Shown: positions 5,231 to 54,038 of the stretch, piece after piece | Numbering within the stretch: position 1 is the stretch's first letter | How the letters are laid out: each line of letters begins with the position of its first letter | NCBI RefSeq assembly: GCF_025847205.1 | Contig: NZ_JAOYTH010000009.1 | Coordinates: forward strand, 62,001 to 126,000 | DNA: 64,000 nucleotides | Direction of reading: 5' to 3' | Origin: Pararhizobium sp. YC-54 | GTDB taxonomy: Bacteria; Pseudomonadota; Alphaproteobacteria; Rhizobiales; Rhizobiaceae | Program-made: the position numbers and the translations under genes | Notes under the pieces: generated by a model | What the model was told of the DNA's origin: nothing | The model's input: only the letters and a program-made list of their open reading frames with translations | Database searches by the model: none

Positions 5231-5306
5231 GAATCGGGTGGATAAATCCCCTCATACGTCATAACCGTCGTTATGTTCCGAATGAGGCAGGGGAAGGTCA
5301 AGTCAC

Positions 5307-36625: not shown

Positions 36626-36667
36626 GGACAAGGCCGTACACGTCAAGACAAAAAAGGGAACAGCGTC

Positions 36668-37828: not shown

Positions 37829-37830
37829 AT

Positions 37831-37881
37831 TCTCTTCTCCCCAGCGGGGAGAAGGTGGCCCGAAGGGCCGGATGAGGGGGG
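37831..37881. repeat. GC-rich palindromic intergenic repeat, family B copy 1
   Basis: Contains CTTCTCCCCAGCGGGGAGAA and GTGGCCCGAAGGGCCGGATG then a G run; two adjacent hairpins. The inverted partner is at 37919-37974 and further copies lie at 52332-52382 and 52459-52510. Confidence 0.85.
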
Positions 37882-37918
37882 CCGAAGGCAACTTCGTTTT
37901 GGCTCCAGCTTCGCTGAA

Positions 37919-37974
37919 GCCCCCCTCATCGCCTCACTGCGTTCGGCTCTTCTCCCCGCTGGGGAGAAGAGGGA
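37919..37974. repeat. GC-rich palindromic intergenic repeat, family B copy 2 (inverted)
   Basis: CCCCCCTCATC ... CTTCTCCCCGCTGGGGAGAA, opposite orientation to the copy at 37831. The pair fills most of the 215-bp gap between the binding-protein and permease genes. Confidence 0.82.
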
Positions 37975-38043
37975 GTTCGCGGCAGAAATCCATTCCGCAT
38001 ATCCGGCACAAGATGCCAGCTACCGAAAGTCGAACCAAGCACC

Positions 38044-38910
38044 ATGCCCATGACCACCGACCGAAAACGGCAACTGCTGACCGCGGCCCTTGTGGCGCCT
38101 GCCGGGTTATGGCTGTTCGTCTTCCTTGTCCTGCCGTTCATGGCAATGGTCGTCTTTTCCTTCGGCGAACGCGCACCGGAGGGCGGTTATCAGCCTGCCT
38201 TCACCTTCGCGCAATTCGCCAATCTCCCGTCGCGCGCGGCCGCTTTCTGGAACACCATGATGATCGCGCCCGCCGGCGCCCTCCTCTGCCTGATCGTCGC
38301 CTATCCCGTCGCCTACTATCTCGCCGTCAAATCCAACCCGAAGTACCGGCTGATGCTCGTCTCCCTCGTCGTCGTGCCCTTCTGGACAAGCCTGCTGGTG
38401 CGCACCTATGCCTGGATGTACATTCTGGGTTCACGCGGCATCCCGAACCTGCTGAGCATGATCGGCATCGAGGATGTGCGGCTCCTGAATACGCCTGGCG
38501 CCGTACTGCTCGGCATCGTCTATGGCTACCTGCCGCTGATGATCATGCCGATCTATGTCAGCCTCGAAAAGCTCGACCGCCGCCTGCTCGAAGCCTCCGC
38601 CGATCTCGGCGCCAGGCCGGTCTCGACCTTCTTCAGCATAACCCTGCCTTTGTCGCTGCCCGGCGTCATGACCGGTGTGGCGCTCGTCACCATCCTATTG
38701 CTTGGCGAATACCTGATCCCGCAGCTGCTCGGCGGCGGCAAGGTGTTCTTCATCGGCAATGCGCTGGTCGATCTCTTCCTGCAATCGCGCAACTGGCCCT
38801 TCGGCTCGGCGATCGCCGTGACGCTCGTCGTGGTCGTCGTAATCGTGCTGACGGTGGCGATGCGCATCGCCTGGAAAGTCTCCGGTTCAAGACAGGTGGA
38901 TCTCGTCTGA
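38044..38910 (+). CDS. ABC transporter permease (PotB type)
   Basis: 288 residues, six predicted helices. EAA loop at LLEASADLGARPVSTFFSITLP (about residues 183-204). First permease of the PotABCD-like importer. Separated from its binding-protein gene by the paired repeat, which might modulate downstream expression. The ATG at 38044 is used (38050 alternative); the stop overlaps the next start by one base (TGATG). Confidence 0.87.
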   Translation: MPMTTDRKRQLLTAALVAPAGLWLFVFLVLPFMAMVVFSFGERAPEGGYQPAFTFAQFANLPSRAAAFWNTMMIAPAGALLCLIVAYPVAYYLAVKSNPKYRLMLVSLVVVPFWTSLLVRTYAWMYILGSRGIPNLLSMIGIEDVRLLNTPGAVLLGIVYGYLPLMIMPIYVSLEKLDRRLLEASADLGARPVSTFFSITLPLSLPGVMTGVALVTILLLGEYLIPQLLGGGKVFFIGNALVDLFLQSRNWPFGSAIAVTLVVVVVIVLTVAMRIAWKVSGSRQVDLV

Positions 38911-39734
38911 TGCGCGCTCTCGTCACGTCCGTCTATCTCTTCCTCTACGCGCCGATCGCGCTGGTCGTGCTGTTCTCGTTCAATGCAGGGCGCAGCGCCA
39001 GCGAGTTCACCGGCTTCTCGACCGTGTGGTACGGCAAGGCGCTTGGGAACACGTTCCTGATCACGGCCTTGCAGAACAGCCTGATGATCGCCTTGACCAG
39101 CGCCGTTCTGGCGGCCGTCTTCGGCACCATGGCAGCGCTCGGCATGCAGCGCCTGAGCAGCCGCAGCCGCGCCATCTTCGACGGCCTGTTTGCAGCAGCC
39201 ATCGTCGTGCCCGGCGTCGTCATCGGCATTGCCACCCTGGTGGCGCTGGTCGAGGTCTTCTCGTTCGTCAACCCGGCGCTCGCCGCGATCTGGCCCGGCG
39301 ACAAGCCGCCGCAGCTCGGCCTCGGCTACGGCTCGATCATCGCCGCGCATGGCCTGTTCTCGCTGGCGCTGGTCACCATGATCGTCAAGGCCCGCATTGC
39401 CAGCCTCGGCCGCGATATCGTCGAGGCCTCGAGCGATCTCTATGCCACGCCGTTCACCACCTTCCGCCAGATCGTCCTGCCGCAGATCCTGCCGTCGGTG
39501 CTTGCAGGCTTCCTGCTCGCCTTCACGTTTTCCTTTGATGATTTCATCGTCGCCTTCTTCGTTGCGGGCTCGAAGACGACGTTGCCGATCTACGTCTTCG
39601 CCTCGATCAGGCGCGGCGTGACGCCGGAGATCAATGCGATTGCCACCATCGTCCTGGTCGCCTCGCTGTTCATGATCCTGATTGCCCGCGTGCTGATGCG
39701 GGACAAGACAACAAAAGTGCAGGCCGGGGAGTAG
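38910..39734 (+). CDS. ABC transporter permease (PotC type)
   Basis: 274 residues, six predicted helices beginning VYLFLYAPIALVVLFSFNAG, with the EAA loop VEASSDLYATPFTTFRQIVL. The asparagine-rich N-terminal segment and FSFDDFIVAFFVAGS are typical of PotC. Translationally coupled to the upstream permease. Confidence 0.88.
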   Translation: MRALVTSVYLFLYAPIALVVLFSFNAGRSASEFTGFSTVWYGKALGNTFLITALQNSLMIALTSAVLAAVFGTMAALGMQRLSSRSRAIFDGLFAAAIVVPGVVIGIATLVALVEVFSFVNPALAAIWPGDKPPQLGLGYGSIIAAHGLFSLALVTMIVKARIASLGRDIVEASSDLYATPFTTFRQIVLPQILPSVLAGFLLAFTFSFDDFIVAFFVAGSKTTLPIYVFASIRRGVTPEINAIATIVLVASLFMILIARVLMRDKTTKVQAGE

Positions 39735-40530: not shown

Positions 40531-41406
40531 CTATTCTCCAGATGGTATCTCGACGGAAAACGCGAAACGCGCCGTCGCACCCGGCTCCAGCGTCACGGTG
40601 TAGGGCCGCTCGTCGAGCGCATTGGAACCGCCGGTACGCGCCGCCATTCCATGCCAGGGCTCGATGCAAAGAAACGGCGCCCCGGGCTTGGTCCAGAGTG
40701 CCAGATTGGGCAGGTTGTCGAATTGAAACCGCAGGGACGGGCCGCCTTTGGCGCCATAGGCAAGACCGGTTCCGGCACCTTCAGGGAAGATCATCGCATC
40801 CGCATCAAACATCGCCGGATCGAGCTCCAGCCGCCCGCCCTGAAACGGTGACGGCAAGACAGCCGAGTCCAGAAGCCCGGCCTGAACACGAACAAGCGGC
40901 GGCTCGGCGCCGTTGTCCAGCGTGACGGCATGCGGCTGCCCCGCAGCGCCGGGCAAGGGCCAGACAAAGGCCGGGTGAAAACCGATCCCGAACGGCATTG
41001 CCTTGACGTCGCGATTGCCGACTTCGGCCGCCACCGTCAGCGTATGGCCGTCCAGCCGATGTTCAACGGCAAGGCTAAACTCGAAGGGATAGACCGGCCG
41101 CGTCGCCTCCGATGCGGCCAGCTCATACCGGCACATCGCCGGTGTCGATGCGGCAAGCGAGAATTCGCTGCGGCGGGCAAACCCATGCTGCGCCATGGGG
41201 TAAGTCTTGCCATCAATCGAAACCGTATCGCCGGGCGCCTTGCCGACGATGGGGAAGAGTATGGGAGAACGGCCGCTCCAGAAGGTCGCATCGCCGCTCC
41301 ACAGCCACGCACGCCCGTCCCGGCTGGTGATCGCCTGCATTTCGGCACCGAGCGACGATATGTCGACGGTCAGATGCTCGTTTTCGATCCGCACTGAAGC
41401 TGGCAT
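40531..41406 (-). CDS. Aldose 1-epimerase-family protein
   Basis: 291 residues with a galactose-mutarotase-like fold. RSPILFPIVGK and QHGFARRSEFSL carry the conserved Arg and His, IGFHPAFVWPLPG the second His, and FLCIEPWHGM the catalytic-Glu region. Closest to the LacX/YeaD-type group. Start ATG 41406; a long upstream reading overlaps the hydratase gene and was not used. Last gene of the leftward run after the hydratase, and apparently unrelated to its pathway. Confidence 0.8.
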   Translation of the reverse strand: MPASVRIENEHLTVDISSLGAEMQAITSRDGRAWLWSGDATFWSGRSPILFPIVGKAPGDTVSIDGKTYPMAQHGFARRSEFSLAASTPAMCRYELAASEATRPVYPFEFSLAVEHRLDGHTLTVAAEVGNRDVKAMPFGIGFHPAFVWPLPGAAGQPHAVTLDNGAEPPLVRVQAGLLDSAVLPSPFQGGRLELDPAMFDADAMIFPEGAGTGLAYGAKGGPSLRFQFDNLPNLALWTKPGAPFLCIEPWHGMAARTGGSNALDERPYTVTLEPGATARFAFSVEIPSGE

Positions 41407-41516
41407 GATCCGTGCTCTCCGCATTGTTCGCAGGTGCACACTAATGTTGTTCCAGAACAAACGGAACTGCTGAGACGGCGTAATTTTCAAGGCTTCGATG
41501 AAGCGTTCACCATCGA

Positions 41517-43178
41517 TCAATCCAGAGCGATATAGCCGATCCCCTTCTTGCCGATCTCATCCACCGACTCCTCATAACCGGCATCGGCATAGCGGATGAC
41601 ACCGAGCGACGTGTCGTTGGTCAGCGCATGACTGAGCCGCTCGGCACCGCCTTCCGTGCCATCGGCCACCACGGTCACGCCGCAGCTGGTCATGTAGCCG
41701 GCATAGCCGCCGCCGCCGGAATGGACGACGACGAGATCGGCCATCGATGAGCAAAGCAGCATGGCGTCAAGCAGCGGCCAGTCGGCGATGGCGTCGGAAC
41801 CGTCTTTCATCCGTTCGGTCATGATGTTCGGATGCGCCATGGCGCCGGCGTCGAGATGATCGCGGGAAAAGGCGATCGGCCCCTTGAGTTCGCCGGATGC
41901 GACCAGCGCGTTGACCGCGACAGCCAACTCTGTCCGCTCGCCATGGCCGAGCCACGCGATGCGGGCCGGCAGTCCTTCGAATGGTACATTTTCGCGGGCA
42001 AGGCGTATCCAGTTGGTGACGATCCTGTTGTCGGGGAACATTTCGAGCAAAAGATCGTCGATGCGGGCGATGTCGCTCTCCTCGCCCGACAGCGCCATCC
42101 AGCGGAAGGGGCCGATGGCGCGGGCAAACAGCGGCCTGAGATAGGCCTCGGTGAAGATGCGGATATCGAAGGCATTGGCAACGCCGCCCTCGCGCGCCTG
42201 GGTGCGGATCAGGTTGCCGTTGTCGAAGACTTCCGCGCCCTTGGCCTGGAACTCCAGCATGGCCTTCACATGATCGACGATCGAGGCGCGGCTTGCGGCC
42301 ATCAGCTGTCCCTGCCCGTCGACACGCAGCCGCTTGACCTCCTCAAGGCTCATGCCCTTCGGCACATAGCCGTAAACGAGATCGTGGGCCGAGGTCTGGT
42401 CGGTGACGATATCCGGCACGATGCCGCGCCTGGCGATTTCAGGGTAAAGTGCGGCCGCATTGCCGACGAGGCCGATGGAGGTGGCGCGCTTTTCCTTGAC
42501 CGCCTGATCAATCATCGCCAGCGCCGTATCGAGATCCGGCGCCACATGTTCGAGATAGCCGATCGCTTTTCGCTTTTCGGCGCGGACGGGATCAATGTCG
42601 ATGCAGAGGATCGCAGCCCCCGCCATGCGGCCGGCGAGCGGCTGCGCGCCACCCATGCCGCCCAAGCCGGCGGTCAGGATGAAGCGCCCGGCGAGATCGC
42701 CGCCGAACCGGTTTTCGGCGATCCGCATGAAAATCTCGTAGGTGCCCTGAATGACGCCCTGGCTGCCGATATATTGCCAGGCGCCGGCCGTCAGTCCGCC
42801 CCAGCAGATCAAGCCCTGCTTTTCCAGTTCGTAGAACACCTCGGCCTTCGCCCACTGGCCGACGATATTGCAATTGGCCATGATCACCAGCGGCGCCTTG
42901 GCATGGGTCTTCAAAAGCCCCACCGGCTTGCCGGACTGGATGATCAGCGTCTGGTCCTCGTCCATCTCCATGAGCGTCTTTACGATGGCCTTGTGGGAGG
43001 CCCAGTTGCGCGCCGCCTTGCCGAGTGCGGCATAGACGATCAGATTGTCCGGATCCTCGCCGACCGAAAGGACGTTTTCCAGTAGCCGCAGCAACGCCTC
43101 CTGCCGCCAGCCCTTTGCGCGCAAATCCGGGCCGCCGGGGATGGGAAAGTTCGGGTGACGGGGGTTGGCCTTCGGCAT
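41517..43178 (-). CDS. Urocanate hydratase homologue, probable thiourocanate hydratase
   Basis: 553 residues, full urocanase (HutU) length, with FILTAGLGGMGGAQPLAGRM NAD-binding block (about residues 167-186). The canonical Cys410 segment GLPARICW reads GLPARIAW here (Ala408), and the HHGGG segment reads VHSGGGG. In the ergothioneine route the paralogous hydratase converts thiourocanate to 3-(5-oxo-2-thioxoimidazolidin-4-yl)propionate (family knowledge). The partners around it (DUF917, carbamoylase, hydantoinase, MIO-less lyase) support that reading. A true urocanase remains possible, as some features of the site are not known to me for all clades. Confidence 0.8.
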   Translation of the reverse strand: MPKANPRHPNFPIPGGPDLRAKGWRQEALLRLLENVLSVGEDPDNLIVYAALGKAARNWASHKAIVKTLMEMDEDQTLIIQSGKPVGLLKTHAKAPLVIMANCNIVGQWAKAEVFYELEKQGLICWGGLTAGAWQYIGSQGVIQGTYEIFMRIAENRFGGDLAGRFILTAGLGGMGGAQPLAGRMAGAAILCIDIDPVRAEKRKAIGYLEHVAPDLDTALAMIDQAVKEKRATSIGLVGNAAALYPEIARRGIVPDIVTDQTSAHDLVYGYVPKGMSLEEVKRLRVDGQGQLMAASRASIVDHVKAMLEFQAKGAEVFDNGNLIRTQAREGGVANAFDIRIFTEAYLRPLFARAIGPFRWMALSGEESDIARIDDLLLEMFPDNRIVTNWIRLARENVPFEGLPARIAWLGHGERTELAVAVNALVASGELKGPIAFSRDHLDAGAMAHPNIMTERMKDGSDAIADWPLLDAMLLCSSMADLVVVHSGGGGYAGYMTSCGVTVVADGTEGGAERLSHALTNDTSLGVIRYADAGYEESVDEIGKKGIGYIALD

Positions 43179-43279
43179 CTTGGTCTTTCCTTCTTCCTAT
43201 CTGCGATCGCATCCCTGCCGCCTTCACGCTACTCCCGTGGAGAGTTCGCGCCAGGAGGAGGCACGGCACCGCTTGTTGT

Positions 43280-43609
43280 TCATTTTGGCGGCAGCGAGAG
43301 AACATAGGCGACCGCCGCATCGAGCAGGCGCTTGCGCAGGGCGTCGTCTCCAAAGGCCTGCGCGCCTGCGCGCACCCAACCGTTCATCCGGCGGTCACCC
43401 ATCACCATGAGCTCAATGCCGGCAAGGGCCAGCGCCCAGCCATCATTGCCCTTGCCGAGGCGCACCAGCATGCCGTCGTTGCGCGCACCGCAAAGAAGAT
43501 TGCCGTCGAGGAGAAAGGCAAGGCCACCGAACATCGGCTTCTCGGAAAGCCCCGATCTCTCGCCGAGCTCCTGCCTGATCAGTTCCTCAAGACCGGCATC
43601 GCGCGACAT
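43280..43609 (-). CDS. TfoX N-terminal-domain protein
   Basis: 109 residues. SEKPMFGGLAFLLDGNLLCG and MLVRLG match the TfoX_N fold; no C-terminal TfoX domain. TfoX/Sxy proteins affect competence genes in gammaproteobacteria, but short single-domain versions are widespread and uncharacterised. It lies 12 nt after the DUF917 gene in the catabolic run, with its own GGGAGAA ribosome site. Its role in the operon is unknown. Confidence 0.8.
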   Translation of the reverse strand: MSRDAGLEELIRQELGERSGLSEKPMFGGLAFLLDGNLLCGARNDGMLVRLGKGNDGWALALAGIELMVMGDRRMNGWVRAGAQAFGDDALRKRLLDAAVAYVLSLPPK

Positions 43610-43621
43610 GGCAAATTCTCC

Positions 43622-44719
43622 CTACATCCGGCCGGACAAAGCGTAGCTTGCAATGTCAATGCCCATCGCCTTCTCGACAGGCGGATAGACAGACGGATCG
43701 AGCACGCTCGACGCCAGAGGGATGACGGTTTTGGGCACATGCAGCACGAAGATTGTCATGCCGACCTGTAATTGCCCGACACTCAACGCTTCGCCCTCCG
43801 GCGACAGTGTGGTGATGACGTCGGGGAAGGTCGCAAGCCGCGTGCCGCCGGCATTCTCCACAGCCATATATTCGTTCATGACGTGGAGTACCGTAGAGTC
43901 ATCACCCTTCCCCAGAGTCACCGTGCCGATATCGAAGGCTTCCTTGGTGTAGACCACGGATTTGTCGGTAATGACGCCTTCCGCAAGGATGGTGCCATTG
44001 GTGGTTTTAGCGATGGTGTCGATGATGGCGCTGCCGCCCTTGCCTTCCGCTGCGATAATCGCCTCGCCCAGAGTCAAGGCCAGCGAGATGCCGCCAAGCG
44101 CTGCATTCCTGCGCACATAGGACGCGCGTAGCGGATTGCGGCACGACGCGATGAAGCCACCGGACATGTCGGATGCGGTGCGCAGGATCGGCGAGATCTT
44201 GGCGGTCGCGCCGCGCACGACCAGCTCGATATAGCGGTTCTCCTCGCGATTGCCGCCAACCGCCGTCTGGATCATCTGCTCGGGCGAGCCCGCCATGCCG
44301 ATCGACCCCATGTCGCCGGTCGGATGCGCCCGCATGTCGCCGACGGCATCGAGAACCTTGGTGCCGAGGATCGCCGATGGCAGCCAGCCGTTCAGCGTCG
44401 AGGACTTGCCGTTCTGCCCGACCATCAGCGCCGAAACTTTCTCGCCAAGCGCCTCCTGCAGCAGCTCGACCGCCTTGACGTAATCGACACCGCGCATTTC
44501 CCAGGGCGTCGTCGAGGCCGGTGCTCCGATGGCCGCAGCCGTCGCCACCCAATCATCGGCATTGAGTTCGTCGACGGAAACCAGCTCCGGCTTGCCGATC
44601 GACACCGCTGCATAGCCGAGCATTCGCCCATGATCGGCCCAGCCGCCACCGCCGGCCGCATAGACCGAGCCGCCCTTGACCGCCGCTTCGACGTCTTTTT
44701 CCGTGAGTATCCGGCCCAT
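43622..44719 (-). CDS. DUF917 protein, probable thiohydantoin desulfurase
   Basis: 365 residues of the DUF917 (S-Me-THD) family: GGGGWADHGRMLGYAAVSIG near the N-terminus, then PWEMRGVDYVKAVELLQ and GNREENRYIELV. Family members remove the sulfur of thiohydantoin propionate in ergothioneine degradation. The start at 44719 shares a base with the upstream stop (TGATG), so it is coupled to the carbamoylase gene. Assignment depends on neighbours as well as on the family. Confidence 0.78.
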   Translation of the reverse strand: MGRILTEKDVEAAVKGGSVYAAGGGGWADHGRMLGYAAVSIGKPELVSVDELNADDWVATAAAIGAPASTTPWEMRGVDYVKAVELLQEALGEKVSALMVGQNGKSSTLNGWLPSAILGTKVLDAVGDMRAHPTGDMGSIGMAGSPEQMIQTAVGGNREENRYIELVVRGATAKISPILRTASDMSGGFIASCRNPLRASYVRRNAALGGISLALTLGEAIIAAEGKGGSAIIDTIAKTTNGTILAEGVITDKSVVYTKEAFDIGTVTLGKGDDSTVLHVMNEYMAVENAGGTRLATFPDVITTLSPEGEALSVGQLQVGMTIFVLHVPKTVIPLASSVLDPSVYPPVEKAMGIDIASYALSGRM

Positions 44720-45987
44720 CACTGCTCTCCCTGTAAATCGCTGTCGAGTTTGCGGACGGCCTCGAACAAAACCGCCGTGCCAAGCGCGATGTCTTCGTTC
44801 TCGGCCCATTCGTCCGGCGTATGCGAGCGTCCCTCGCGGCAAGCGATGAAGATCATTGCCGACTTGGAAATCCGTGCCATCCAGGCGGTGTCGTGACCGG
44901 CGCCGGACGCCATGCGACGGCGCCTTGCCCCAACACGGTCACAGGCCTGTTCGAGATTGCGCATCACCAAGGGGTCGGCAGGTGTCGGAAAATTGTCTGA
45001 AATCAACTTTGGCGAGGCGATCGACACACCGGTTTCGCGCTGGATATCGACAGCGAGCTGGTCAATCTCGGCGATGAACCGTTCCATGTCCGGCCGCAGC
45101 TCCGCGCGTGCGTCGATCAGGATGCGGGCGCGCGACGGCACGACATTGGCCGCGTTCGGCTCGATCGAGAATTCGCCGACCGTCGCGGTGAAATGCCCCT
45201 CGCCCTTGGCATAGTCCATGGCCAGACGTTCGATCTCACCGACCATGCGCGCGGCGGCCACCAGCGCATCGCGCCTGTGTCCCATCGGCGTCGTGCCGGC
45301 ATGGTCCGCCTGGCCTTCGAAGAGGATTTCGATGCGGGTAATACCGGCGATCGCCGTGACGATACCGATATCGCAGCGCTCGGCTTCCAGCACCGGACCC
45401 TGCTCGATATGCAATTCCAGAAATGCCTTGATATCCGAGCGCTTCTGCCGTGCCAGCCGTGACGGGTCGCCGCCGGCATCGATCATGCCCTGCCGCAGAG
45501 TGAGCTCCCCTTGCGTGCGGCTCAGCCAGCCGTCCGGGATCAGCCCCGCCAAACCGCGGCTGCCGATACAGGACACGCCAAAGATCGAGACTTCCTCGGC
45601 AAGGAAATCGACAACCTCCAGATCATGATCGAGCCTTATGCCGGCATCGCTCAACGCCTGCGCCACTTCGAGTGCCGCAGCGACGCCCGCGATACCGTCG
45701 AAGCGGCCGCCTTCCGGCACCGTATCGGAATGCGAGCCGAGCATGATCGTCCCGAGCGTGGATTTACGCCCCTTGCGGCGGCCGATCAGGTTTCCGGAAG
45801 CATCGATGCGGGTTTCCAGCCCGGCCGCTTTGAAGCGCTGTTCGAGAAAGGCCCGCCCTTCGAGAAACAGTGGCGTGAAGGCACGGCGCGTATAGGGCCT
45901 GTCCGGCTCGGTGATGCGGGCAAGGCCCTTGATAATATCGGCAATGCGCCTGATATCGACGGGAAGATTGGTTTCGACCGTGGCCAT
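44719..45987 (-). CDS. M20-family N-carbamoyl-L-amino acid hydrolase (probable N-carbamoylglutamate amidase)
   Basis: 422 residues. Zinc ligands are visible: MLGSHSDTVPEGGRFDG (His/Asp), DFLAEEVSIFG (Glu-Glu), ELHIEQGPVLEAE (His), and GAGHDTAWMARI (late His). Belongs to the HyuC/AllC/UraC group, all acting on carbamoyl or ureido compounds. In this operon it would convert N-carbamoyl-L-glutamate to L-glutamate, the last step. TGATG overlaps join it to both neighbours. Confidence 0.86.
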   Translation of the reverse strand: MATVETNLPVDIRRIADIIKGLARITEPDRPYTRRAFTPLFLEGRAFLEQRFKAAGLETRIDASGNLIGRRKGRKSTLGTIMLGSHSDTVPEGGRFDGIAGVAAALEVAQALSDAGIRLDHDLEVVDFLAEEVSIFGVSCIGSRGLAGLIPDGWLSRTQGELTLRQGMIDAGGDPSRLARQKRSDIKAFLELHIEQGPVLEAERCDIGIVTAIAGITRIEILFEGQADHAGTTPMGHRRDALVAAARMVGEIERLAMDYAKGEGHFTATVGEFSIEPNAANVVPSRARILIDARAELRPDMERFIAEIDQLAVDIQRETGVSIASPKLISDNFPTPADPLVMRNLEQACDRVGARRRRMASGAGHDTAWMARISKSAMIFIACREGRSHTPDEWAENEDIALGTAVLFEAVRKLDSDLQGEQ

Positions 45988-47366
45988 CAGACAGCCTCGC
46001 GCAACGGCAGGCTTGGCAGCGGCCGGACGAACTGGCCAGTGCCGGGCGCTGCCAGCACCGTCTTGCCGTCGAAAACCTGTATGCCCCGGTTATAGGTCGC
46101 AGTCACCCGCCAGGGCAGGCGGATGCCATTATAGGGCGACCAGCCGACGACATTGTTGCCGCTTGCTGCCGCGTCATAGCTGTAGGACTCCGGCGTCAGG
46201 ACGACGATATCCGCATCCTTGCCGGCCTCCAGCGCACCCTTCTGGTGGTCCAGCCGGAAATGCCGGGCCGGGTTGAGTGACATCAGTTCGGCGGCGCGCG
46301 TCAACGGAATGCCGCGCTCCAGCAAGCCTTTGACAAACAGCGGGATCATCACCTCCAGCCCCGGAACACCGGAGGCATTGGACAGCATGTCCGGGTTGGT
46401 CTTGCGGTTTTCCGACCAGCTGACGTGATCGGTCGAAACCAGCGTCACCTTGCCGTCAGCCACATGCCGCCAGAGCTTTTCCACCTCGGCGCGCGGCCGG
46501 ATCGGCGGATTGATCTTCGCCTTGCCGCCCAGCCGCTTGACGTCGTTCTCCTCATCGAGAACGAGATAGTGGATGCAGCATTCGATGGTGGCCCGAAAAC
46601 CCTGTGCCCGATAGGCAGCGGCGATATCGTAGCCACGCCCGACCGAGCAGTGGACGACATGGGCCGGGCAGCCGGTCGCAGCCCCTGTTTCGTAGATCTG
46701 ATTGGTGGCAAGCAGCTCCGTCAGCGGCGGGCGTGACAGGCCGTGGGCGCGGTAGTCGGTAATGCCGGCCGCCTTGACCTTGTCGATCGCGGCCCGCACC
46801 GCCTCGTCGTCCTCGTTGTGCACGCCGGCAGCCAGGCCGGTTGGCGCGATCGCCGCAAAACAATCCTCCAGCAAACCGGCCGGAATGCGCGGAAAACGTT
46901 TCGGATCCGTGCCGAAGGTCGAAAACTTGAACGCGGCAACGCCCGCCTCGACCATCTCGGGAATACGTGCCGGGCCTTCCTCCGGATCAATCGTGCCGTA
47001 GAGCGCGAAATCGACGCGCGCCTGCGCCCCGGCATGATCGATCTTGCGCTGCACGGCCTGCGCCGAGCAGACAAGATTGCCTTCGTCATAGGGCATGTCG
47101 ACGATGGTGGTGACACCGCCTGCCGCCGCCGAACGCGTCGACCAGATGAAATCCTCCTGATCCTTTTGGCTCAGCGAATGCACCTGCGCATCTATGGCTC
47201 CGGGCAGGATCAGCGCGCTTCCAAGATCATAGCGTTCGCGTGCGCCCGGCATCGCGCCCTGCCCGACAAACGCCACCTTGCCGTCGCGCGCAGCGACGAA
47301 CCCGCCCTCGACGATGCGATCGGCCAGAACAACCGTCCCCTTCAGAACCAGATCGAAGTCAGACAT
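45987..47366 (-). CDS. Cyclic amidohydrolase, probable hydantoin-5-propionate hydrolase
   Basis: 459 residues of the dihydroorotase/allantoinase/hydantoinase superfamily. The metal-site motif that is usually DxHxH reads DAQVH (residues 59-63), a variant also seen in other dihydroorotase-like enzymes; AAAGGVTTIVDMP and VHCSVGRGYDIAAAYR and STDHVSW are recognisable. The expected reaction is ring opening of hydantoin-5-propionate to N-carbamoylglutamate. Coupled by TGATG to the carbamoylase; 12 nt after the lyase gene. Alternative: allantoinase. Confidence 0.8.
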   Translation of the reverse strand: MSDFDLVLKGTVVLADRIVEGGFVAARDGKVAFVGQGAMPGARERYDLGSALILPGAIDAQVHSLSQKDQEDFIWSTRSAAAGGVTTIVDMPYDEGNLVCSAQAVQRKIDHAGAQARVDFALYGTIDPEEGPARIPEMVEAGVAAFKFSTFGTDPKRFPRIPAGLLEDCFAAIAPTGLAAGVHNEDDEAVRAAIDKVKAAGITDYRAHGLSRPPLTELLATNQIYETGAATGCPAHVVHCSVGRGYDIAAAYRAQGFRATIECCIHYLVLDEENDVKRLGGKAKINPPIRPRAEVEKLWRHVADGKVTLVSTDHVSWSENRKTNPDMLSNASGVPGLEVMIPLFVKGLLERGIPLTRAAELMSLNPARHFRLDHQKGALEAGKDADIVVLTPESYSYDAAASGNNVVGWSPYNGIRLPWRVTATYNRGIQVFDGKTVLAAPGTGQFVRPLPSLPLREAV

Positions 47367-47378
47367 CCCCTGCCTCCC

Positions 47379-48917
47379 TTACTGTCCAAGCGCAAAGAAA
47401 TCGTCGAATTCGGGCATCGGCGCCGCCGCCACGATCGCCTCAAGCAGACGCCCGCAGGCAAAATCGTGATGCAGCACCTCGATCTCCTTCGACAGTGGCC
47501 GGTCCTTGAGATAGATCGGGCTGACGGCCCGCACCCGGTCATAGGCAATCCGGGTGACGCCGTGCGGTGCATCGCCCAAAAGATCGATGGCCTGGGCCGA
47601 TAGCATGGCCTCGATCGCCGCCATCTGCCTGAGATCGCGCACCTGCGTTTCCATGCGTTCGACGATCAGCGGCAGGAAGGTCGCCTCCTCCTCCAGACCG
47701 CCGGCAACGACGATCGATTGCGCCGACAAGGGAACAGCCAGCGACTGGACGCGCATGTAGAGTTCCACCACCAGCTTCATCACCGGGCCAAGGCCGCTCG
47801 CGACTTCGCCCGGTGCGACCAGGTTGATCGGCAGGTTTCGCCGCACGCCGTTGGAGAGAAGAATGCAGCGGTTCAGCACATTGCGCGCCACATGCGAAAA
47901 GGCGATCTGCGCCGTCTCGATATAGAGCGTCGTCGTCAAGGGTAGCGAGGCGCCGGAGGCATGCACCTGTCCGCCCAGTACCACCGGATTGTCGTCGGAC
48001 AGATAGGTCGCATCGACCAGCCGCTCGGCTGCGACGAGAAGTGTATCGACCGCTGCGCCAAACACCTGCGCGGTCATGCGCAGGCTCAAGGGATCGTGGA
48101 TCGCCGTCGGCAGCGGCCAGTCGACACAATCGGACTGGCCATAGAGCCAGGAGCCGACCAGCGCTTCGCCGCGCGTTCCAAGTGTTGCAGCAACCCGCCA
48201 TGGGTCGGCAGAAGCGCCGAGCGCCAGCGACGACATCAGGCCGGTGGTCATCAGCACACGCACGGCCGATGCCGCCTCGCGGAATACGTCGGCGGCCGCG
48301 GCAAAAGCCGTGGCGTTGACGCTGAGCGCTGCCAGCGCATCGCGCGGCAGCATGACGAAGGGTTCAAGCCCGGCGCGGCGCAGGGCTTTATCCGCGTCGA
48401 GCAATTCACCCTCGAAAAAGGCCTGGCCCGTACCGGTCAGCACCGAGGCGATTTGCCCCATCAGGCCGATATCGGCACAACCGATCGAGCCGTGGCGATG
48501 GACGGCCGGCACGACGCCACGCTCCAGAAGGGCCAGCAACGCCTTGACGAGATCGACGCTGCAGCCGGTGTGCCCCCCAAGCGCCGTGTTGACGCGGATA
48601 GCGATGGCCTTGCGCACGATGGCTGCGGAAAACAGTGGACCGGTGCCGAAATGGTGGGCCTTGACCAGAGCCGTGTTGAATTCCACGAGGTCATCGACCG
48701 TCCACAGCCGGTCCTTCATTGAGCCGACGCCGGTATTGGCGCCATAGACCGGCAGACCCATGGCAATACGACCGGCGATGACACTGTGGGCGGTATCGAC
48801 CCGTTCGAATGACTGCTCGGCAACGACGGGCACGAACAGGCCGGAGCCGATTTTCTCCAATGAGGAAAAATCCAGCGGGTTACCGTTCAGGGATATGGTT
48901 TTCACCGATGCATGCAT
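47379..48917 (-). CDS. Histidine/aromatic ammonia-lyase homologue without MIO triad, probable ergothionase
   Basis: 512 residues, the full HAL/PAL fold. The catalytic-Tyr block VYGANTGVGSMKDR (Tyr58) is intact. The Ala-Ser-Gly that would cyclise to the MIO cofactor is replaced: GSIG is followed by Cys-Ala-Asp (residues 147-149) and IGLMG, not ASGDLAPL. Without Ser in the triad MIO cannot form in the usual way. Ergothionase, which eliminates trimethylamine from ergothioneine, is the MIO-less member of this family (family knowledge). First gene of the operon; ATG 48917 after AAGGTGA, GTG 48929 as alternative. Confidence 0.85.
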   Translation of the reverse strand: MHASVKTISLNGNPLDFSSLEKIGSGLFVPVVAEQSFERVDTAHSVIAGRIAMGLPVYGANTGVGSMKDRLWTVDDLVEFNTALVKAHHFGTGPLFSAAIVRKAIAIRVNTALGGHTGCSVDLVKALLALLERGVVPAVHRHGSIGCADIGLMGQIASVLTGTGQAFFEGELLDADKALRRAGLEPFVMLPRDALAALSVNATAFAAAADVFREAASAVRVLMTTGLMSSLALGASADPWRVAATLGTRGEALVGSWLYGQSDCVDWPLPTAIHDPLSLRMTAQVFGAAVDTLLVAAERLVDATYLSDDNPVVLGGQVHASGASLPLTTTLYIETAQIAFSHVARNVLNRCILLSNGVRRNLPINLVAPGEVASGLGPVMKLVVELYMRVQSLAVPLSAQSIVVAGGLEEEATFLPLIVERMETQVRDLRQMAAIEAMLSAQAIDLLGDAPHGVTRIAYDRVRAVSPIYLKDRPLSKEIEVLHHDFACGRLLEAIVAAAPMPEFDDFFALGQ

Positions 48918-48994
48918 GCTTTGACTCACCTTGTTGGCGACATGCTATGCCCAACAGCCCGGTTTGTGTTATATCCCAAAAATGAAACACACGA

Positions 48995-49018
48995 TGCCGA
49001 TAACTGTACATATCGGCA
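48995..49018. promoter_or_regulatory. Palindromic operator between lyase and LysR-type regulator
   Basis: TGCCGATA - 8 nt - TATCGGCA, perfect arms, 39 nt upstream of the regulator and 78 nt upstream of the lyase start. Divergent position and symmetry fit a LysR-type site. Confidence 0.65.
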
Positions 49019-49056
49019 CTACCCCGCAATCCACCTGAAGAGGATCATCGCCGTCC

Positions 49057-50259
49057 ATGGACATTGCCACGCTCGCCCTTGTTCACGCGATCCTTGAAGA
49101 ACGCGGAATCCGCCGGGCAGCGAAGGCAAGCGGCAGGCCACCGGCAAGCGTCAGCGCCGCGTTGAAACGCTTCGAAGCGGCCATCGCGGTGCCGCTTGTC
49201 CGGCGCGAGCGCGCCAATCTGGTGCCGACATTGGAGGCGCTGAGCCGGATGGCTGACCTTGCGGCTGCAAGCGAGGCCATCAGGTTGCTCCTGTCCCCCG
49301 GCAAAAACCCTGACGCCACACCATCGATCAGCTTGATCGCTTTGGAGCGCTTCGTCACCGTCGCCCGCAGCGGCAGTATCCGCGGCGCCTCGAAAATGTC
49401 GGCGACCGGACAGCCGCAGCTGACGCGGCAGATGAACGACCTGGAGCGCGACCTCGGCTACGCGCTGCTCATCCGTTCGCCATCCGGTATCACCTGCACG
49501 GCCGAAGGCCTGGCGGCGATCCCGATCGTCGAAAACCTGCTCGAAATCTGGCGGCGGCTGTCGCGCGCCTCCGGCGACCGGTTCCGCCGGGCGGCGGCCA
49601 CCTGGCGTTTCGGCTCGGTGATGCCGCTCGGCCCGGAAAGCGAGATCGCCCGCATGCTGGCGGCACTGACAGCGCAGTGGCATCGCGCCCGCCCGCGCCA
49701 GCCGCTGTTCGTGTCCAGCACGACCGCCGACGAACTGATCGCCGGACTGAAAAACCGCCGCTTCGACGTGGTGCTGCTTGACCTTGAAACCTTCCCGTTG
49801 GAATTCGAAGGCAGGCTGATTTCGCGCACGCCGCTGGCGCTCGCCGGCCACCCGTCGCTGTTTGCCAAGCACGGCAGCGATATCGGTCGATTGCTGCAAG
49901 CCAATCCCATCGCCGTGCCGAGCGTCAAAAGCGGGCTGCGCCAGCAGGCTACCCATTTCATCGAGGCAACGCTGAGCGAACACGAACGCAGCAGGCTGAC
50001 ATTGACCGAGGTCGATTCGATCCCCGTCATTCTCAATCTGGTGATGGATCACGGTTATCTTTCGGTGCTTCCGGAAAGCTCCGCTGCCCGCGTGCGAAAT
50101 CCCCCGGCGATGCTAAGGCTTGGCCACGGCTACATGCAGAGCCTGTCGCTGGCCTGGCAGAAAAACGCGCTCTCGCGGCAGGTGGCGGAAGCCATGCTGG
50201 GCATGATGACGACGGACAGGACATTGGGCCAGCCCACGATTGAATCACCTCCTGCATAA
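49057..50259 (+). CDS. LysR-type regulator with two tandem HTH domains
   Basis: 400 residues, about 100 longer than a usual LTTR. Residues 1-65 form a first winged-helix segment (IRRAAKASGRPPASVSAALK then FEAAIAVPLVRRERANLVPT). Residues about 86-150 form a second complete LysR HTH (LERFVTVARSGSIRGASKMS, TRQMNDLERDLGYALLIR). The effector-binding domain follows from about 180. Divergent from the lyase operon, so probably its regulator. The tandem HTH is unusual and unlikely to be an artefact, because the frame is continuous. Confidence 0.85.
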   Translation: MDIATLALVHAILEERGIRRAAKASGRPPASVSAALKRFEAAIAVPLVRRERANLVPTLEALSRMADLAAASEAIRLLLSPGKNPDATPSISLIALERFVTVARSGSIRGASKMSATGQPQLTRQMNDLERDLGYALLIRSPSGITCTAEGLAAIPIVENLLEIWRRLSRASGDRFRRAAATWRFGSVMPLGPESEIARMLAALTAQWHRARPRQPLFVSSTTADELIAGLKNRRFDVVLLDLETFPLEFEGRLISRTPLALAGHPSLFAKHGSDIGRLLQANPIAVPSVKSGLRQQATHFIEATLSEHERSRLTLTEVDSIPVILNLVMDHGYLSVLPESSAARVRNPPAMLRLGHGYMQSLSLAWQKNALSRQVAEAMLGMMTTDRTLGQPTIESPPA

Positions 50260-50327: not shown

Positions 50328-51299
50328 TCAGCTCTTGAGCTTGACGCGCCTTCGCGTCTCGCTCGGGCTTTCACGGTAGTGGGCGCGATAACTGCGCGAA
50401 AAGGCCGAGGATGAATTGAAGCCGGTGGCAGCGGCGATATCGGCAAAATCGGCCCGCGTCTCGATCACCTTGCGCCGCGCCGCATTCAGCCGAAGCGCCA
50501 GGTAATGGGCATGCGGCGCCACCCCCATAGTCTCCTGAAACAGATCCTGCAAATGGCGGGCGCTGACCCCTGCCCGTCGGGCAAGGCGGGTGAGCGTCAA
50601 CGGCGCATCGACCGTCTCTTCCATCAGCTTGACGGCAGCACCGACGCGGGCATCGAGAATGCGCATATTGCCGATGACGGGAACCTGGAGCAGATCGCCG
50701 CGCGTGCGCTCCTGTTCGTAGATGAACAGCCGCGATACTTCCAGCGCCAGCGAATAGCTGTGCTGGCGGCGGATCAGCTCCAGCATCAGGTCAAGCGTCG
50801 GCAGCGAACCGCCGGTGGTGATTCGCTTGCCGTCGATGACGAAACGCTCGCGCACCATGGTGATCTGCGGATAGGCGGCGGCGAAATCCTCAAAATCTTC
50901 CCAGTGATTGGTTGCCGAGAAATTGTCGAGCAGGCTGGTCTCGGCCAGAAACCATGTGCCGGCCTCGATCCCGGCCATCACCTCTCGATGCCGGGCCGTT
51001 CGCGACAATAGCATCTTCAATTGCGTGGTGGCGTAGGCCCGCCAGTTGTAGCTCGACAGGATGAACAGCGGGGCCGTCTCATTCTGCGGCCGGAAAGGCC
51101 CGGCAACGGGGATCGGGATTCCGCTCTTGGTTTCGATCGCCTGGCCGTCCGGGCTGAAAATCGCCCAGTCATACAGCACCTTTCCGGCAATGCGATTTGC
51201 GGCGCGGAGCGGCTCGATCACCGACGCAACGAGGATCAGATTGGTCTCCGGCAACACCAGCAGATCGATATGCTGGGTCCCATCCGCTGGAACGAGCAT
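50328..51299 (-). CDS. GATase1-like AraC-family regulator (GlxA/CdhR type)
   Basis: 323 residues. N-terminal DJ-1/PfpI-type amidotransferase-like domain (residues 8-190, no catalytic Cys recognised), C-terminal AraC HTH (LARRAGVSARHLQDLFQETM then DIAAATGFNSSSAFSRSYR). In Pseudomonas, CdhR of this family activates carnitine dehydrogenase genes. The carnitine-type genes start divergently at 51411. ATG 51299 is chosen with GGAGAT upstream; a longer in-frame reading runs through the BKACE gene on the opposite strand and was rejected. Confidence 0.87.
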   Translation of the reverse strand: MLVPADGTQHIDLLVLPETNLILVASVIEPLRAANRIAGKVLYDWAIFSPDGQAIETKSGIPIPVAGPFRPQNETAPLFILSSYNWRAYATTQLKMLLSRTARHREVMAGIEAGTWFLAETSLLDNFSATNHWEDFEDFAAAYPQITMVRERFVIDGKRITTGGSLPTLDLMLELIRRQHSYSLALEVSRLFIYEQERTRGDLLQVPVIGNMRILDARVGAAVKLMEETVDAPLTLTRLARRAGVSARHLQDLFQETMGVAPHAHYLALRLNAARRKVIETRADFADIAAATGFNSSSAFSRSYRAHYRESPSETRRRVKLKS

Positions 51300-51362
51300 T
51301 CGTCCATCTCCGGCTTCTATTTCCGAAAATGTATAACACACATCCGCAAAAGGAAAGCAGAG

Positions 51363-51388
51363 CCGGCATTCTTGGCTCGTAATGCCGG
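51363..51388. promoter_or_regulatory. Inverted repeat in the CdhR/BKACE divergent promoter
   Basis: CCGGCATT - 10 nt - AATGCCGG, perfect arms, 22 nt upstream of the BKACE start. A candidate activator or operator site for the AraC-type regulator. Confidence 0.55.
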
Positions 51389-51410
51389 TCAAGAACAAGG
51401 GGAGGCTTTT

Positions 51411-52313
51411 ATGCCACTGAGCATGAACCGCGACGTTTTCATCACCTGTGCCGTCACCGGATCCGGCGATACCGCCGGCAAGTCGCCGCATGTGCCGCGA
51501 TCGCCAAAACAGATTGCAGCCTCGGCCATCGACGCCGCCAAGGCAGGTGCTGCCATCGTCCATTGTCATGTGCGTGATCCGGATACGGGTGCGCCGAGCC
51601 GCCGCAATGACCTCTACAAGGAAGTCACCGATCTCATTCGCGCCGCCGATGTCGATGTGGTGCTCAACCTGACGGCCGGCATGGGCGGCGACATGATTTT
51701 CGGCAATGTCGAAAGCCCGCTGCCGCTCAATCCCAACGGCACCGACATGGCCGGCGCCACCGAGCGCGTTTCCCACGTCGCCGAATGCCTGCCGGAAATC
51801 TGCACGCTCGATTGCGGCACGATGAACTTCTCGCTCGGCGACTACGTCATGACCAATACGCCGTCGATGCTGCGCGCCATGGCCAAGATGATGACCGATC
51901 TTGGCGTGCGCCCGGAAATCGAAGCCTTCGATACCGGCCATCTCTGGTTCGCCAAGCAGCTGGTCGAGGAAGGCCTGATCGAAGACCCGGTCCTGATCCA
52001 GCTGTGCATGGGCATTCCGTGGGGTGCGCCCGACGACCTCAACACCTTCATGGCGATGGTCAACAACGTCCCGAAGAACTGGACATTCTCTGCCTTCTCG
52101 ATCGGCCGCAATGCGCTCGCCTATCCGGCAGCGGCAGTGCTTGCCGGCGGCAATGTCCGCGTCGGGCTGGAAGACAATCTCTATGTCGGCAAGGGCCAGC
52201 TCGCCACCAACGCGCAGCTCGTCGAAAAGGCCGTCGGCGTCATCGAAGGCATGGGCGCCCGGATCATCGGGCCGGCCGAAGTGCGTGAGAAGTTGAAGCT
52301 GGTGAAACGGTAA
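51411..52313 (+). CDS. Beta-keto acid cleavage enzyme (BKACE, DUF849), probable dehydrocarnitine-cleaving
   Basis: 300 residues. HCHVRDPDTG at residues 51-60 supplies zinc ligands of the family; AFDTGHLWFAKQLVEEGLI and GNVRVGLEDNLYVGKGQLA are BKACE hallmarks. It condenses a beta-keto acid with acetyl-CoA and cleaves it. Next to a carnitine dehydrogenase-thioesterase gene the expected reaction is 3-dehydrocarnitine plus acetyl-CoA to betainyl-CoA plus acetoacetate (known rhizobial route). Strong GGGGAGG ribosome site. Separated from the next gene by paired repeats. Confidence 0.86.
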   Translation: MPLSMNRDVFITCAVTGSGDTAGKSPHVPRSPKQIAASAIDAAKAGAAIVHCHVRDPDTGAPSRRNDLYKEVTDLIRAADVDVVLNLTAGMGGDMIFGNVESPLPLNPNGTDMAGATERVSHVAECLPEICTLDCGTMNFSLGDYVMTNTPSMLRAMAKMMTDLGVRPEIEAFDTGHLWFAKQLVEEGLIEDPVLIQLCMGIPWGAPDDLNTFMAMVNNVPKNWTFSAFSIGRNALAYPAAAVLAGGNVRVGLEDNLYVGKGQLATNAQLVEKAVGVIEGMGARIIGPAEVREKLKLVKR

Positions 52314-52331
52314 TTACGACTGTGAGGCGAA

Positions 52332-52382
52332 GCCCCCTCATCCGCCCTTCGGGCACCTTCTCCCCGTTGGGGAGAAGAGGGG
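52332..52382. repeat. GC-rich palindromic intergenic repeat, family B copy 3
   Basis: CCCCTCATCCGCCCTTCGGG then CTTCTCCCCGTTGGGGAGAA. Same family as 37831-37974, in the gap between the BKACE and dehydrogenase genes. Confidence 0.82.
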
Positions 52383-52458
52383 GATCGGGGCTACCCCCTG
52401 CTGGAACCGCTTTGCAAGGCGCACGTGTTTCGATCTGAATGCAGCAGACCCGCAGTCT

Positions 52459-52510
52459 CCCTCTTCTCCCCAGCGGGGAGAAGGTGGCCCGAAGGGCCGG
52501 ATGAGGGGGA
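52459..52510. repeat. GC-rich palindromic intergenic repeat, family B copy 4 (inverted)
   Basis: CTTCTCCCCAGCGGGGAGAA, GTGGCCCGAAGGGCCGGATG and a G run; nearly identical to the copy at 37831-37881. Together with copy 3 it forms an inverted pair. Confidence 0.85.
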
Positions 52511-52538
52511 ACCGGGAAGACAGAATTATAAGGGGAAC

Positions 52539-54038
52539 ATGACGATCATGACCAAAATTACCAAGGCAGCCTGCATCGGCGGCGGCGTTATCGGCGGGGC
52601 CTGGGCGGCGCGCTTCATTCTCGCCGGCATCGACGTCAACATGTTCGATCCGCATCCGGAGGCAGAACGCATCGTCGGCGAAGTGCTTGCCAACGCGGAG
52701 CGTGCCTATGCGATGCTGACCATGGCGCCGCTGCCTCCGAAGGGAAAGCTCACCTTCGTCAAGAGCATCGAAGAAGCCGTGCAAGGCGCTGACTGGATTC
52801 AGGAAAGCGTTCCCGAGCGGATCGACCTGAAGCGCAACGTCATCACCCAGATCGACGCGGCCGCCTCGCCGACGGCGCTCATCGGCTCGTCCACGTCAGG
52901 CATCATGCCGACGGACCTGCAGCGCGACATGAAGCATCCCGAGCGCATGTTCGTCGCCCATCCCTATAATCCGGTCTACCTGCTGCCGCTCGCCGAACTG
53001 GTCGGTGGCGAAAAGACCGCCAAGGCAACGCTGCAGGATGCCAAGGCAAAGCTTGCGCCGATTGGCATGAAGGGCGTGATCATCAACAAGGAGATCGAGG
53101 CCTTCGTCGGTGACCGCCTGCTCGAAGCCGTCTGGCGCGAAGGCCTGTGGCTGATCAAGGACGACATCTGCGATACAGAAACGCTCGACGACGTCATCCG
53201 CTATTCGTTCGGGATGCGCTGGGCCCAGATGGGCATGTTCGAGACCTACCGCATTGCCGGTGGCGAAGCCGGCATGCGCCACTTCCTCGCCCAGTTCGGC
53301 CCTTGCCTGTCCTGGCCCTGGACCAAGCTGATGGACGTGGTCGATCTCGACGACGAATTGGTCGACAAGATCGCCGGCCAGTCCGACGCACAATCCGGCG
53401 CGCGCGGCATCCGCGAGCTGGAACGCATCCGCGACGAAAACCTCGTCGGCATCATGCATGCCTTGAAGAGCGGCGATGGCGGCAAGGGCTGGGGTGCGGG
53501 CAAGCTGCTCGCCGATTTCGAGGACAGTCTGTGGGCCAACGCCGAAAAGCCCAAGACCGATCTCGGCCAGGCACAGCCGATCCGCATCCTTGACACCAAG
53601 GTCAACGCCGCCTGGGTCGACTATAACGGCCACATGACCGAACATCGCTACCTGCAGGTGTTCGGCGACACGTCGGACGGCGTCCTGCGCCTGATCGGCG
53701 TCGACCTCGACTACGTCAAGAACGGCCACAGCTACTACACGGTCGAAACCCACATCCGCAATCTCGGCGAAGCCAAGCTCGGCGACGCGCTCTACTCGAC
53801 CTGCCAGATCCTCTCCTATGACGAGAAGCGCCTGCATATCTTCTCGACCATCTACAACGCCGCCTCCGGCGAAGCGGTGGCCACCGCCGAACAGATGATG
53901 CTGCATGTCTCCTCCAAGGAGAGCAAGGCCGTGCCGGCTCCGGCTTCGGTGCTCGACAGGGTGAAGGCGATTGCCGAAGCGCATGCGGGGTTGCCGCAGC
54001 CGGAGGGCGTTGGGCGTGCCGTGGGGCAGAAGCGATAG
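52539..54038 (+). CDS. L-carnitine dehydrogenase fused to a betainyl-CoA thioesterase
   Basis: 499 residues, bifunctional. Residues 8-330 are 3-hydroxyacyl-CoA dehydrogenase-like: ACIGGGVIGGAWAARFIL (NAD), VPERIDLKRNV and the HPYNPVYLLPLAELVGG signature. Residues about 350-470 are a hotdog thioesterase of the 4HBT type (VNAAWVDYNGHMTEHRYLQV onward). The fusion is the documented rhizobial carnitine enzyme, which oxidises carnitine and hydrolyses the betainyl-CoA made by BKACE. ATG 52539 is used (AGGGGA directly upstream); ATG 52548 is also possible. Confidence 0.9.
   Translation: MTIMTKITKAACIGGGVIGGAWAARFILAGIDVNMFDPHPEAERIVGEVLANAERAYAMLTMAPLPPKGKLTFVKSIEEAVQGADWIQESVPERIDLKRNVITQIDAAASPTALIGSSTSGIMPTDLQRDMKHPERMFVAHPYNPVYLLPLAELVGGEKTAKATLQDAKAKLAPIGMKGVIINKEIEAFVGDRLLEAVWREGLWLIKDDICDTETLDDVIRYSFGMRWAQMGMFETYRIAGGEAGMRHFLAQFGPCLSWPWTKLMDVVDLDDELVDKIAGQSDAQSGARGIRELERIRDENLVGIMHALKSGDGGKGWGAGKLLADFEDSLWANAEKPKTDLGQAQPIRILDTKVNAAWVDYNGHMTEHRYLQVFGDTSDGVLRLIGVDLDYVKNGHSYYTVETHIRNLGEAKLGDALYSTCQILSYDEKRLHIFSTIYNAASGEAVATAEQMMLHVSSKESKAVPAPASVLDRVKAIAEAHAGLPQPEGVGRAVGQKR

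Follow-up and report, generated by a model that had tools for sequence, protein, structure and literature searches.

Gene content of the operon

A stretch of 64,000 nucleotides from Pararhizobium sp. YC-54, a soil bacterium related to rhizobia (contig NZ_JAOYTH010000009.1, positions 62,001 to 126,000; hereafter the window) was analysed, in which six minus-strand genes at 41517-48917 all run in one direction. They encode a lyase of the histidine ammonia-lyase (HAL) fold, a cyclic amidohydrolase, an M20 hydrolase, a DUF917 protein, a small TfoX_N protein and a HutU-like hydratase (Table 1). As judged from sequence comparisons, these genes very probably constitute a complete ergothioneine-to-glutamate (ert) operon, which is headed by a divergent and probably cytosolic ergothionase. 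The five enzyme genes on their common strand had been recognized correctly in a first-pass annotation of this DNA, which overlooked the TfoX_N gene, and the TGATG overlaps that it had described among the middle three enzyme genes are indeed present at both the ErtD/ErtE and the ErtE/ErtC junctions. The ATG at 48917 as start of the lyase gene agrees with the length of 512 amino acids of most close relatives; an in-frame GTG is also found at 48929, and it is from this GTG (516 amino acids) that the lyase residue numbers are counted.

Table 1. Features of the predicted ert operon and its flanks (positions in the window; profile scores in bits)
Feature	Position	Strand	Basis
HAL-fold lyase without MIO, predicted ergothionase of a divergent clade, step 1	47379..48917	-	PF00221, 256
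ErtD, predicted hydantoin-5-propionate amidohydrolase, step 4	45987..47366	-	NF058538, 795 (cut-off 600)
ErtE (M20), predicted N-carbamyl-L-glutamate amidohydrolase, step 5	44719..45987	-	NF058540, 611 (cut-off 520)
ErtC, predicted thiohydantoin desulfurase (DUF917 / S-Me-THD fold), step 3	43622..44719	-	NF058529, 598 (cut-off 440)
Small TfoX_N protein, 109 amino acids, within the operon	43280..43609	-	PF04993, 37.6 (cut-off 30.1)
ErtB, predicted thiourocanate hydratase (HutU-like, Ala for Cys in GLPARIxW), step 2	41517..43178	-	NF058530, 1045 (cut-off 930)
Intergenic region between lyase and LysR genes, presumed promoter/operator	48930..49056		position alone
LysR-type protein, two HTH_1 domains in tandem; probably regulates the operon	49057..50259	+	divergent from the operon
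Gene like aldose-1-epimerase, with an overlap at the hydratase gene's 3' end	40531..41520	-	PF01263

The chemistry of the predicted route is that of the published pathway. The lyase, which lacks the 4-methylideneimidazole-5-one (MIO) group and is probably cytosolic, would eliminate trimethylamine from ergothioneine to form thiourocanate, which the hydratase would convert to 2-thiohydantoin propionate. The DUF917 desulfurase would then remove the sulfur, resulting in hydantoin-5-propionate, the ring of which would be opened by ErtD, and after removal of the carbamoyl group by ErtE the predicted flux would end in L-glutamate. The trimethylamine would be oxidised further by a monooxygenase/trimethylamine N-oxide (TMAO) demethylase cluster on the same contig, and the divergent LysR protein probably controls the operon. 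A five-step bacterial ergothioneine catabolism was reportedly described by Beliaeva, Leisinger and Seebeck in 2021 (ACS Chem Biol). All five enzyme classes of that pathway stand together in the window operon, which differs from it in its separate lyase clade, the added TfoX_N gene and the LysR regulator with tandem helix-turn-helix (HTH) domains.

Hydratase, desulfurase and amidohydrolases

When scanned with the NCBIfam 20.0 library, whose equivalog models have curated cut-offs, four of the five enzymes (ErtB, ErtC, ErtD and ErtE) score above the cut-offs of models that are specific to ergothioneine breakdown. ErtE obtains an even higher score with the generic "Zn-dependent hydrolase" model NF009531 (683 bits, cut-off 486). 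The hydratase has its best match in the Protein Data Bank (PDB) with 7ned (E 2.4e-244), an entry deposited as "Urocanate hydratase". That it lacks the cysteine of the GLPARICW motif, as stated in the first-pass annotation, could be verified: the window enzyme reads GLPARIAW, with alanine where urocanase carries cysteine. This exchange is general in the related loci, i.e. the best 80 of 241 relatives found, as GLPARIxW was detected in the hydratases of 74 of them and always contains alanine (the remaining six are off-pattern or cut). Among 25 other ert loci the motif was detected in 20, again with alanine throughout, and among 24 HutU loci in 16, all with cysteine.

The ErtD and ErtE families are also present in a cluster of apparently different chemistry, which is found on plasmids of Paraburkholderia graminis (L114, 2829-10422) and Burkholderia ambifaria (L115, 2809-10422) and consists of a MIO-type HutH, a hydratase, a second amidohydrolase, ErtD, ErtE and an ATP-binding cassette (ABC) importer. 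The L114 hydratase lies under both ert-type cut-offs yet over that of hutU, and L114 has a TRZ/ATZ-like protein as its extra amidohydrolase. These clusters may serve the breakdown of another 2-substituted histidine.

The lyase

The best PDB sequence match of the lyase is the ergothionase of Treponema denticola (6s7j, E 3.2e-54), followed by a HAL at 1.8e-41. The absence of the MIO-forming Ala-Ser-Gly, noticed at first pass, is evident from the motif GSIG-CA-D, the counterpart of GSVG-ASG-D in the HutH of the same genome. The window clade was aligned in 87 rows, one for the window copy and 86 for relatives (86 distinct), and compared with 28 rows of MIO lyases (26 distinct); one of the 80 related loci, L044, lacked an intact lyase row and was left out. 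The MIO motif occurs in 0/87 and 28/28 rows, respectively, a contrast that is circular in itself since the comparison set was picked by this motif, which does not apply to the other motifs. The position once occupied by the MIO motif reads Cys-Ala in 84 rows of the window clade, Thr-Ala in 2 and Cys-Gly in 1. DDNP is found in all 87 rows and in none of the MIO lyases, GVG..KD in 86 rows and a single MIO lyase, and GxGPxxK in 86 rows and no MIO lyase, whereas QDPY is absent from the window clade and present in 25/28 MIO lyases.

For comparison with ergothionases a clade was used that comprises the Treponema enzyme and 13 predicted relatives; the Burkholderia HME13 ergothionase BAM63550 is outside this set. 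At 90% conservation and with HutH as counterpart, the window clade shares 15 positions with the ergothionase clade only and 2 with HutH only, and at 6 positions the window clade departs from a residue on which the ergothionase clade and HutH agree. Val68, Lys72, Asp73, Asn85, Leu281, Asp312 and Lys385 are common to the window lyase and the ergothionase clade and differ in HutH, and from Lys72 onwards this series was also traced in the Treponema enzyme itself. HutH also conserves Tyr62, Arg284 and Glu413, and Gln159 distinguishes the window lyase from both the ergothionase clade and HutH, which have histidine. An AlphaFold2 model of the lyase (mean predicted local distance difference test score, pLDDT, 90.1) retrieved 6s7j as top Foldseek hit with a template modelling (TM) score by target of 0.93-0.94 and a root-mean-square deviation of 1.9-2.0 Å, followed by the Pseudomonas putida HAL with 0.86-0.88 and 2.8-3.3 Å, a ranking to be read with the fold bias that the alignment behind the model contained 11 ergothionase-type and no HutH sequences. 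The window lyase thus resembles the Treponema ergothionase (6s7j/6s7q) in fold and in the lack of MIO, and differs from it in its overall sequence (28-29% identity) and in the cysteine in place of glutamate at the former MIO position. No NCBIfam ergothionase model matched any scanned lyase; since even the Treponema ergothionase went unmatched, as did the lyases of Burkholderia and Paracoccus, the missing match was rejected as an argument against the window lyase.

In a tree of 58 rows the window lyase clade is supported at 100/100, and a 98/95 branch sets it together with the ergothionase clade apart from HutH, from a further, third MIO-less group and from other lyases. The ergothionase clade also takes in one lyase, L130, that is otherwise unexplained. 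In a second tree of 53 rows, from which five long rows were excluded, the window and ergothionase clades are on the same side of a 97/91 branch and HutH is on the other. The first-pass criterion of clustering with ergothionases therefore holds for the side of the tree, but not for the clade: the window lyase stands outside the clade with the characterised Treponema enzyme, in a clade of its own beside it, and is 23-33% identical to its members. By these comparisons it appears to be a kind of ergothionase. Because this clade is deep and of low identity, the substrate is assigned from context and residues, not from close homology.

The third MIO-less group (GSxGA[AG]D) comprises L117 (8007-9467), L136, L137 and L138, one of which adjoins an ornithine-cyclodeaminase-like gene.

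Conservation and co-occurrence

All five enzyme genes are present in 77 of the 80 related loci, and the three misses are at contig or locus ends, so that the gene set is not a chance assembly. In a survey of 151 genomes of the family of the window genome, the hydratase ErtB exceeds its cut-off in 16. The lyase (threshold E 1e-60 or better) was found in 13 genomes, all of them among these 16 and none among the 135 others (Fisher p 2.8e-16, uncorrected for kinship). Across the phylum the hydratase exceeds its cut-off in 6/398 genomes. Of the three family genomes with the hydratase and without a window-type lyase, one (G486, locus L152) has a Treponema-type lyase adjoining the operon, and in the other two (L153, L154) there is no lyase within the stretch read. 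The proposal made at first pass, that this operon encodes the five-step route from ergothioneine to glutamate, is thus strongly supported at the level of sequence by the four equivalog hits, the MIO-less lyase nearest to 6s7j and the occurrence of this lyase together with the hydratase in 13 of 13 genomes.

The same ErtB, ErtC, ErtD and ErtE are found near a MIO-less lyase also in the clusters of Burkholderia arboris (L119) and Paracoccus denitrificans (L125). Unlike the window lyase, the lyases there are of the Treponema type (about 35% identity to 6s7j); judged by eye alone, they start with an export-signal-like leader, and a gene for a major facilitator superfamily (MFS) transporter adjoins.

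The TfoX_N gene is kept between ertC and ertB, with a tblastn match in 58/80 related loci.

Uptake, regulation and the fate of trimethylamine

Relevant for uptake are five loci (L050, L065, L068, L076 and L155; four Devosia loci and genome G479), in which genes of an OpuAC-type ABC importer for quaternary amines lie between the lyase gene and ertD; in Ochrobactrum L127, a binding-protein gene adjoins the LysR gene. Homology to EgtUC, the ergothioneine-binding domain in PDB 9egi, was detected for the L050 binding protein (E 1.6e-28); EgtUC is described, in the sections consulted of PMC9732360, to grip the betaine group of ergothioneine through cation-π contacts. The window genome has 11 OpuAC matches, and in the 8 of these loci that were searched there was no tblastn match (E 1e-5) to the L050 protein. 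Polyamine-type ABC genes at 35543-39734 were considered as ergothioneine importer and are unsupported: their binding protein (at least 78% identity) occurs in 16/151 genomes, of which 9 carry ErtB and 7 lack it, and in 2 of these 9 it is located away from the operon.

The LysR gene starts 127 bases from the GTG at 48929. Its product contains HTH_1 domains at residues 5-60 (E 3.1e-10) and about 95-151 (E 3.8e-12), followed by LysR_substrate. A tblastn match to it was found in 50/80 related loci and in the ert clusters L120, L121 and L123. The extra N-terminal HTH_1 is also present in the LysR protein of L120 from Paracoccus aminophilus (5043-6242). Among the papers listed by a literature search on LysR proteins with tandem HTH_1 domains, none was evidently on the subject.

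It is tempting, if still speculative, to regard the lyase as a second, cytosolic ("type II") class of ergothionase that would have split early from the Treponema/Burkholderia class and exchanged the loop glutamate for cysteine. It would operate with a betaine-type ABC importer and cleavage in the cytosol, instead of an exported lyase and an MFS importer for thiourocanate, under regulation by the tandem-HTH LysR protein.

As to TRIMETHYLAMINE fate, a trimethylamine-oxidation cluster is located about 60 kb from the operon on the same contig, with trimethylamine monooxygenase (848 bits, cut-off 675), TMAO demethylase (1254/1100), TMAO permease (842/690) and a heme N-demethylase-like gene (PF11927, 243 bits). 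An obligate tie between the operon and trimethylamine oxidation is unsupported.

Weighing the explanations

Several observations weigh against the assignment as ergothionase operon. The former MIO site is Cys (85/87) or Thr (2/87) in the window clade and Glu in all 14 rows of the ergothionase clade, among which the Treponema enzyme is the sole ergothionase to have been characterised. When HutH and the other MIO-side lyases are taken together as counterpart, the numbers of conserved positions fall to 3 shared with the ergothionase clade only, 1 with the MIO side only and 3 differing in the window clade (90%), or 10, 2 and 6 at 80% conservation; Lys385 and Leu281 are also present in the third MIO-less group. 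The stem of the window clade is very long (2.6 and 3.08 changes per column), with a warning of long branches by the tree tool, and the members of the ergothionase clade are 34-79% identical among themselves; in view of this stem and the identity of 23-33% the lyase could have changed its substrate. The L050 binding protein resembles glycine-betaine/OsmF-type proteins (5teu, E 2e-145) more closely than it does EgtUC, and the window operon itself is without an OpuAC-type importer. Trimethylamine monooxygenase occurs in only 6/16 ErtB genomes, compared with 17/135 others (p 0.019), a weak link across the family. Finally, the ert clusters L120, L121, L123, L124, L143, L153 and L154 show no lyase within the stretch read; L143 aside, they possibly use thiourocanate from elsewhere, and the downstream genes alone are therefore no proof of a local ergothionase.

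The cysteine at the loop, the separate clade and the clusters without lyase would also be compatible with a lyase that acts on another histidine derivative, such as hercynine, 2-thiohistidine or selenoneine, the resulting (thio)urocanate being degraded by the four downstream enzymes. However, the lyase shares with the ergothionase clade the positions from Val68 to Lys385 that HutH lacks, the loss of MIO is, on mechanistic grounds, easier to reconcile with trimethylammonium as leaving group than with an amine, a quaternary-amine importer adjoins window-type lyases in five loci, and both hydratase and desulfurase pass thio-specific models. We think that this explanation is unlikely.

Less probable still is a pathway for S-methyl-ergothioneine or ergothioneine-sulfonate instead of plain ergothioneine. 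Such related pathways exist and NCBIfam has S-methyl models, and the cluster on the Agrobacterium tumefaciens plasmid pAt (L126), inferred to be of the S-methyl type, contains homologous DUF917, hydratase, ErtD and ErtE genes. But the DUF917 protein and the Gly-type hydratase of L126 are only 36% and 52% identical to those of the window, and it has extra genes for a glutathione S-transferase and an S/N-oxide reductase and no lyase in the stretch read, whereas no reductase-type gene is among the scanned operon genes of the window. The S-methyl variant was rejected by the model cut-offs: the window desulfurase reaches 278 bits with NF058532 (cut-off 450) and the hydratase 742 bits with the S-methyl-type model (cut-off 880), while the thio models were passed.

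An ordinary or duplicated histidine-utilisation (hut) cluster, to which the HAL and urocanase folds and a hydratase score over the hutU cut-off (685/375) could point, has next to no probability, as the thiourocanate model outscores hutU, the lyase without Ala-Ser-Gly reaches 200.6 bits with hutH (cut-off 539.15; true HutH 730.6), no imidazolonepropionase (HutI) is among the scanned operon genes, and a separate hut set is present on contig C16 with hutH (731/539), hutI (468/298) and hutU (967/375) all above cut-off. The first-pass warning that automatic annotation would name the operon histidine utilisation is thus only partly borne out: NCBIfam 20.0 names four genes correctly and leaves the lyase far under the hutH cut-off, but offers no ergothionase model that fits, and public records of relatives do read histidine ammonia-lyase, aromatic amino acid lyase and urocanate hydratase.

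Neighbouring genes and related clusters

The aldose-1-epimerase-like gene is probably outside the pathway, with a tblastn match in only 2/80 related loci (these loci stop about 9 kb from the lyase). On the other side of the operon, at 50328-54038, lies a carnitine-type cluster with a carnitine 3-dehydrogenase (902.8 bits, cut-off 592), a GbdR-like regulator and a 3-keto-5-aminohexanoate-cleavage-type enzyme, the latter two under their cut-offs. A second HutH-like lyase is encoded near the hut genes of contig C16 (L134, 5900-7213; 41% identity to the genome's HutH, 436/539), in which the usual GSVGASGDL pattern was looked for and not found. PF10017, the family of EgtD, has no match in the genome. 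Among the ert clusters of other strains, L120, L121, L123, L124, L153 and L154 contain ErtB, C, D and E; L120 and L121 are located beside tripartite ATP-independent periplasmic (TRAP) transporters, and the DUF917 gene of L124 matches in three pieces.

Significance

The ergothioneine pathway has been published (2021), and the new part may be the lyase clade. A literature search that paired "thiourocanate hydratase" with ergothioneine found nothing, and the clade is not mentioned in the portions consulted of PMC13405746 and PMC9732360. As far as its consulted portions go, the survey in PMC13405746, which used one known ergothionase from Burkholderia as query, concluded that the enzyme is confined to few genera and itself cautioned about divergent homologues. 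A single-query survey can overlook lyases that, like the window clade, are 23-33% identical to the ergothionase clade. Ergothioneine breakdown releases trimethylamine, and the clade offers defined rhizobial genomes, along with one enzyme, for testing whether there is a second class of ergothionases.

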